The notes under the pieces: model-generated
Databases searched by the model: none
What the model was told of the DNA's origin: nothing
What the model saw: only the letters and a program-made list of their open reading frames with translations
Source of the DNA: Methanolobus tindarius DSM 2278
GTDB taxonomy: Archaea; Halobacteriota; Methanosarcinia; Methanosarcinales; Methanosarcinaceae
DNA length: 64,000 bases
Assembly (NCBI RefSeq): GCF_000504205.1
Contig: NZ_AZAJ01000001.1
Coordinates: 1,090,879 to 1,154,878, forward strand
Reading direction: 5' to 3'
In this document: positions 43,960 through 45,163 of the stretch, piece after piece
How positions within the stretch are numbered: position 1 is the first letter of the stretch
Layout of the letters: each line of letters begins with the position of its first letter
Translations under genes and position numbers: made by a program

Positions 43960-44421
43960 TTAATCGTTAGTATCTGTACCTGAGGTTATCTTTCTTAGTT
44001 TTTCAACATAACCGGGAAGGCTTTCAATATCTTTAATTTCTTTTTGTACCAGGGATACGATAAGTTCCCTTATTCTCATATCCGGATTGATTCCAAGAGC
44101 ATGCAGATTCTGCACGAGTTTATCAGCAAGAATATTACCTCTGCGATCCCAGTCAGTTAGAATAACTATTTGTTTTCCGGTCTTTGCGAGATCCTCACTG
44201 AAATTAACAAGAGAATGATGGGTAGCCAACCTGAAAGTACCATTGAACCCAAGAGACTTTAATGCAATTACATCCCTTTTTCCTTCCACAACTAAAATCG
44301 AATCCTGATTTACAAAATCCTGTAATTCACCCAGTAATTTGTCCATTTGTTCCATCCTTTTTTCATATACTATCAAAGGAGCTTTCAAATATCTTTTAGA
44401 GCCGGGTTTTCTTGGTCGCAT
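43960..44421 (-). CDS. Toprim-domain protein (RNase M5/primase-like, COG1658 type)
   Basis: 153 residues from ATG 44421 (MRPRKPGSKRY). The Toprim core has the glutamate in LVVEGKRDVIAL (about 51-62) and the DxD-like TDWDRRG (about 99-105). Basic ends suggest nucleic-acid binding. No SD and a TTTAAAG box about 25 bp upstream hint at a leaderless transcript. Confidence 0.75.
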   Translation of the reverse strand: MRPRKPGSKRYLKAPLIVYEKRMEQMDKLLGELQDFVNQDSILVVEGKRDVIALKSLGFNGTFRLATHHSLVNFSEDLAKTGKQIVILTDWDRRGNILADKLVQNLHALGINPDMRIRELIVSLVQKEIKDIESLPGYVEKLRKITSGTDTND

Positions 44422-44571
44422 GACAATAATCCATATCTTTAAAGTAGGTTCCTGATAGGTGTTCAAACAGGATTGTCAATTGCCTTTCATTTGATTAAAG
44501 AATGACCTTTGAAATCATGTAAAATGTAAGATGTAAAACACGCAAAATAAAAAGATTCTAAAAAGAGATAA

Positions 44572-44666
44572 CTATTACAAGTAAAGACCTGTCGCAATCG
44601 AAAGCAAACATTTTGGGATTGGGAGGGAATCGTTGCGACAGGATATGATAAATTTACTTGTAATAG
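44572..44666 (-). ncRNA. Two-tier hairpin RNA with C-rich loop, overlapping the end of a small ORF
   Basis: Outer arms CTATTACAAGTAAA (44666-44653) and TTTACTTGTAATAG (44585-44572) are perfect 14-bp complements. Inner arms CCTGTCGCAA (44642-44633) and TTGCGACAGG (44597-44588) are perfect 10-bp complements. A 10-nt/2-nt internal loop separates them. The 35-nt apical loop contains TTCCCTCCC followed by AATCCC. Beyond 44572 the RNA strand is U-rich (TCTCTTTTTAGAATCTTTTT), a likely termination site. The outer 5' arm carries the last codons and stop of the 26-aa ORF. Confidence 0.7.
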
Positions 44667-44734
44667 CGAACGAACTGATCAAACTGTTCATAGTAGTATG
44701 CTCTTTCTACCAGGTTTTCGAAATATTCATCCAT
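44654..44734 (-). CDS. 26-residue aromatic small protein
   Basis: ATG 44734 to TAA 44654 encodes MDEYFENLVER...QFVRYYK, 26 residues with ten Tyr/Phe and alternating acidic/basic positions, predicted amphipathic helix. GAGGTGA, nearly the full anti-SD complement, lies 5 nt upstream, and a TATA-like TTAATATATG (44764-44775, read on the minus strand) is about 30-40 bp upstream. Too short for standard gene callers. Length and style resemble small regulatory proteins of Methanosarcina mazei such as the 23-aa sP26 that binds glutamine synthetase, but I cannot establish homology. Confidence 0.72.
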   Translation of the reverse strand: MDEYFENLVERAYYYEQFDQFVRYYK

Positions 44735-44836
44735 GTATTTCACCTCAGACACTAGATTGTTTTCTGCATATATTAAGAAAAGGCAAGCGAGGTGAAAGTA
44801 TTCAAGCAAATAAAAACTACAACTTTCATATTAAGA

Positions 44837-45163
44837 TTAAACAGCATCATCAAGCAGATTGTCATTTAAAATTGCAATTATATGAGAATATTCAGCATTC
44901 TGCAAAAGAAGAGATTTCTTAGAATTATGCATCCCGTTTACAAAAGAGATTTCAGAACTGCGAAGTCCAAACAGGTCTGCAAGAGCGGAGATAAGCTGTT
45001 CATTGGCCTTGCCTTTCTGAGCATTCTGGGACAAGCGCACTTCAATTCTTTTTCTCCATAGATTATAGCCGCTTGGTACGCAAAGAACCTTCGAACCAGG
45101 CGTAACTTCAATATCAATAATAACCCCGGAATCCACCTCTTTTAAAGCATCCTCAAAAGACAT
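44837..45163 (-). CDS. DUF167/YggU-family protein
   Basis: 108 residues from ATG 45163 (MSFEDALKEVDSG). The DUF167 core is DIEVTPGSKV, RIEVRLSQNAQKGKANEQLISALADLFGL, with a C-terminal extension. Small conserved protein of unknown role. Confidence 0.8.
   Translation of the reverse strand: MSFEDALKEVDSGVIIDIEVTPGSKVLCVPSGYNLWRKRIEVRLSQNAQKGKANEQLISALADLFGLRSSEISFVNGMHNSKKSLLLQNAEYSHIIAILNDNLLDDAV

Follow-up and report, generated by a model that had tools for sequence, protein, structure and literature searches.

The SOS response of bacteria includes micro-effectors such as SidA of Caulobacter (~29 aa) and SulA. How euryarchaea coordinate their response to damage, and whether checkpoint effectors exist in them, is a question still largely open in the field. 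In Halobacterium the genes induced by UV-B, radA1 among them, have the motif TTTCACTTTCA in common upstream of the TATA box, and this UV-responsive motif has been reported for radA1, top6B, vng17 and vng280 (PMC2556686). The UV-inducible promoters of Sulfolobus require A(N)TTTC at -39 to -44, which reads ACTTTC in upsE and upsA (PMC5817253), and ANTTTC, the DNA damage response element of this genus, is bound by Orc1-2 (PMC9738581). Moreover, dual-function sRNAs have been reported in the methanogen Methanosarcina mazei (PMC11456600).

The locus described here lies in a window of 64,000 nucleotides (positions below are those of the window) from the 3.15 Mb genome of Methanolobus tindarius DSM 2278. 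It is best explained as a single-gene unit for a conserved micropeptide, switched by an activator-type promoter element common to radA, RPA, uvrA, hef, recQ, xseA and further genes of DNA repair, a reading to which we assign a probability of roughly 0.68. An earlier note had treated this locus as a small mRNA/sRNA. The likely context, a DNA-repair regulon, was missed there, and the most conserved element of the locus, TACTTTCACCTCGCTTG (44800-44784), was overlooked, being placed just beyond the interval that the note covered.

The micropeptide gene and its conservation

The unit is encoded on the minus strand and was found only once when its whole genome was checked. It is flanked by the gene for a DUF167/YggU family protein upstream (44837..45163) and by the gene for a small Toprim-domain protein downstream (43960..44421), both also on the minus strand and outside the unit. 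The TATA box TTAATATA (44769..44776), which aligns across homologs, is followed by the Shine-Dalgarno (SD) sequence GAGGTGA (44740..44746), retained by most homologs and located 5 nt 5' of the ATG at 44734, and by the 26-codon ORF MDEYFENLVERAYYYEQFDQFVRYYK ending in TAA at 44654 (44654..44734). The T-rich stretch CTCTTTTT (44560..44567), 3' of a hairpin considered below, is by its sequence a candidate transcript end. All these signals had been described in the earlier note, as had the idea that the peptide is functional, and this idea is now strongly supported by the distribution of its homologs across the family and by the selection acting on its reading frame.

The 26-residue query matched all 27 Methanolobus genomes searched, at full length and with zero stops, and in the same search also matched six further genera. 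An order-wide profile built from 24 homologs found members in 142 of 180 Methanosarcinales genomes (E<=0.1) and in 107 of the 118 genomes with a completeness of 90% or more, although some of the matches in families f2 and f3 were weak and may be due to chance. The peptide is 24-48 aa long across the order, with ~47 aa in the M. mazei homolog. For 25 different sequences, taken from Methanolobus and a single sister genus, the pN/pS ratio was 0.206 in frame, indicating purifying selection, against 1.98 and 1.15 in the shifted frames. Taken together, these sequence comparisons argue strongly that the 26-aa ORF is a genuine conserved protein-coding micro-gene, and the micropeptide is very probably translated. 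Such a gene is present in nearly every Methanosarcinaceae genome, yet its length is below that reached by routine annotation.

Searches of Pfam, NCBIfam and PDB profiles with the peptide returned no relative, no family and no solved structure. An amphipathic helix was considered for the peptide and rejected, since its helical hydrophobic moment was not above that of shuffled sequences. A diverged form of the peptide (MDLFWSGLVRRAS...) occurs in family f5 and several dispersed copies of the gene are found in genus g5. In Methanosarcina-type genomes there is a tandem second copy (L048, G036:C1:879259 and 880604), and the copy at 879259 is without evident box.

A promoter box common to the peptide gene and repair genes

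The element TACTTTCACCTCGCTTG (44784..44800, minus strand) lies 66 nt before the ATG and 7 nt 5' of the TATA box. Homologs of the peptide gene have its consensus, TACTTTCAC-N3-GCTTG, in common 5' of their TATA box. All 27 Methanolobus loci tabulated match this box at 12 or more of its 14 positions, at -66 or -67. In 40 additional homologs, picked by the peptide profile alone but from genomes related to those in which the box was recognised and hence not fully independent, the box was found at -65 to -69 with at least 12/14 matches in 31 and at least 10/14 in 37; none of 8000 shuffled windows attained 12. Peptide and box therefore go together, also in those homologs whose peptide is divergent. 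The case for the peptide gene as a member of a DNA-repair regulon, with the box at fixed spacing, is strong.

When a TATA-like stretch was required and one mismatch at most was allowed, ten box sites were counted in the own genome against none in the control, whereas allowing up to two mismatches gave genome-wide sites only about twofold over the control. Eight genes are found directly behind these boxes, encoding RadA, a TIGR03916-type radical-SAM repair protein, Hef, RPA, UvrA, a SbmC/GyrI-like protein, RecQ and XseA (identified with NCBIfam and Pfam, the radical-SAM protein scoring below the curated cut-off). The remaining two sites precede the gene for this peptide and that for a small structured RNA. 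The genes for RadA, UvrA, RPA, RecQ, Hef and XseA, as assigned by reading translations, were again found behind the box in other genera. In a scan of 295 genomes of the phylum, almost all occurrences of the exact pattern fell in Methanosarcinaceae and close relatives, with almost nil in the control; scattered sites elsewhere precede RPA and a Mre11-like gene. No tRNA or known RNA gene carrying the box was found, Rfam search included, and a partial literature search gave no paper describing such a regulon in Methanosarcinales. For a large order of methanogens the box defines a regulon that can be put to the test, the more so as the genetics of Methanosarcina are good. It comprises repair genes and uncharacterised small genes, and the peptide is its most consistently shared small member.

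Other short genes behind boxes were also observed. In the own genome two paralogous 86-aa proteins (L092, C1:1251239, and L099, C1:2418345), for which no Pfam or NCBIfam family was found, and two related short basic proteins of 31 and ~30 aa (MDPSEQVFVDNYKHRMRKK...; L098, C1:2415009, and L117, C1:1245897) have near-exact boxes, and a 34-aa ORF, MTEFEKRVKLITTIRSIQKKSAASRDKRKKQAFF, sits between the box and uvrA (L124). Moreover, tyrosine recombinase-like proteins are encoded behind exact or near-exact boxes in two other genomes (L166 in G036 and L177 in G030), which suggests damage-linked mobile elements.

The 3' hairpin and a second box-driven RNA

The last codons and the stop of the ORF form the 5' arm (44653..44666) of an outer stem, whose 3' arm (44572..44585) is perfectly complementary to it over 14 nt. 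Inside it the arms CCTGTCGCAA (44633..44642) and TTGCGACAGG (44588..44597) form a second stem of 10 bp. The apical part has TTCCCTCCC and AATCCC, and contains the C-rich, anti-SD-like loop CCCTCCCAATCCC (44615..44627; all minus strand). This architecture is as first described in the earlier note. The predicted RNA fold is more stable than 200 of 200 dinucleotide shuffles (z -4.1), and an Rfam search of the RNA gave no matching family. In an alignment of 26 sequences, 25 of them from Methanolobus and the last from a sister genus, the inner stem (8 bp) is paired in 97% of cells and has three pairs with two-sided change, one of them U-A/C-G at 14:12; its covariation score was equalled by no shuffle. 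The outer stem is retained in two registers, with a mean duplex energy of -13.2 kcal/mol as compared with -4.8 kcal/mol for shuffles. In addition, synonymous codon identity, in a small sample, is 0.87 in codons 21-26 versus 0.76 in codons 2-20, as would be expected if RNA pairing also constrains the last codons. CCTCC or CCCTC is kept in the loop of 25 of 27 Methanolobus loci, being lost in two species, and variants occur in several sister genera. By inspection, the C-loop hairpin is not evident in Methanosarcina-type genomes and in family f5, which keep both the peptide and the box. Peptide and switch would thus seem to be ancestral, and the hairpin to be specific to its lineage. The most likely role of the hairpin is to mark the 3' end of this short mRNA and to protect it, and an RNA or a protein probably binds to the C-rich loop.

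The structured RNA at the other box site (L126, G000:C1:1520383+) has counterparts behind the box in ~35 Methanosarcinaceae genomes (among them L184, L188, L162 and L205-L231), with a conserved hairpin ACACGCCTT...AAGGC...GGTGY and an exposed CATCCCCTC. In most of the 27 loci located, the distance from box to core is 70-73 nt; of 30 loci compared for this RNA, three had been placed wrongly. As its ATG and frame shift between species, this RNA looks non-coding.

The covariation of the stems and the conservation of the loop, together with the exposed CATCCCCTC of the second RNA and the precedent of dual-function sRNAs in M. mazei (PMC11456600), would be consistent with an mRNA that encodes the peptide and also pairs in trans, through its CCUCC/AUCCC loop, with the G-rich SD regions of other mRNAs. 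Nevertheless, a crude search of the own genome for complementarity to the loop gave 27 sites against 13 in the control, with almost none before a plausible start and no convincing SD targets. The loss of the motif in two Methanolobus species, and relatives that retain peptide and box with no evident hairpin, also count against such pairing, which is possible but doubtful. The proposal of a small mRNA/sRNA is supported in part, for the peptide and for the conserved RNA structure beside the ORF, but its trans-acting half does not find the same support.

A probable damage response and comparison with known systems

The box could instead be a general strong-promoter element and the peptide a housekeeping micro-protein. 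Damage induction is here deduced from promoter sequence, some box sites precede genes of no known repair role and some repair genes are without an exact box. This explanation is unlikely, as there are only some ten sites per genome, the genes at exact sites are overwhelmingly repair genes that recur across genera, and the core matches published UV-response motifs. The ACTTTC(A) core is directly 5' of BRE/TATA at 44800-44784, as in the archaeal UV promoters, and the same box also stands before radA and further repair genes of this genome. That the hairpin is the whole function and the ORF incidental, as a structured 3' end on a short transcript might suggest, is already contradicted by purifying selection in this frame only and by order-wide matches to the peptide profile, the peptide being conserved even where the hairpin is absent.

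Induction of the micropeptide gene by damage is preferred, and is likely. The match of core and position to the Halobacterium and Sulfolobus motifs suggests that the Methanolobus box responds to damage, and as the switch is that of the main DNA-repair genes, the tiny protein is probably made when DNA is damaged. Upon damage a regulator, for which an Orc1/Cdc6 paralogue is one candidate, would bind ACTTTCAC upstream of BRE/TATA and transcription of the peptide gene would rise. During the response the peptide may then act as a soluble regulator by binding to a partner in replication, repair or cell division. It would be a SOS-like effector in Methanosarcinales, with a lineage-specific structured 3' end on its mRNA. 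A much bolder and improbable version would see a euryarchaeal SOS-like regulon with a dedicated effector micropeptide, a functional counterpart of SidA/SulA, in which this mRNA and the second box-driven RNA also supply C-rich anti-SD loops, by which translation would be reset once DNA is damaged.

The locus resembles the small proteins and sRNA154 of M. mazei, a member of the same methanogen family, in that a short transcript of an archaeon combines a small ORF with RNA structure (PMC11456600), although sRNA154 belongs to nitrogen regulation. With SidA and SulA it shares a very small gene in a DNA-repair regulon, but the peptide is archaeal and has neither an apparent membrane segment nor sequence similarity to them. 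The Sulfolobus element is likewise a non-palindromic ACTTTC immediately 5' of BRE/TATA; it belongs to another phylum, however, with a shorter motif, a different gene set and Orc1-2 as its binder. As compared with Halobacterium, the Methanolobus element, TACTTTCAC-N3-GCTTG, has a second half-site and covers more repair genes, but both have the ACTTTCA core upstream of TATA, before radA and other genes, which in Halobacterium are UV-induced and include a small ORF.
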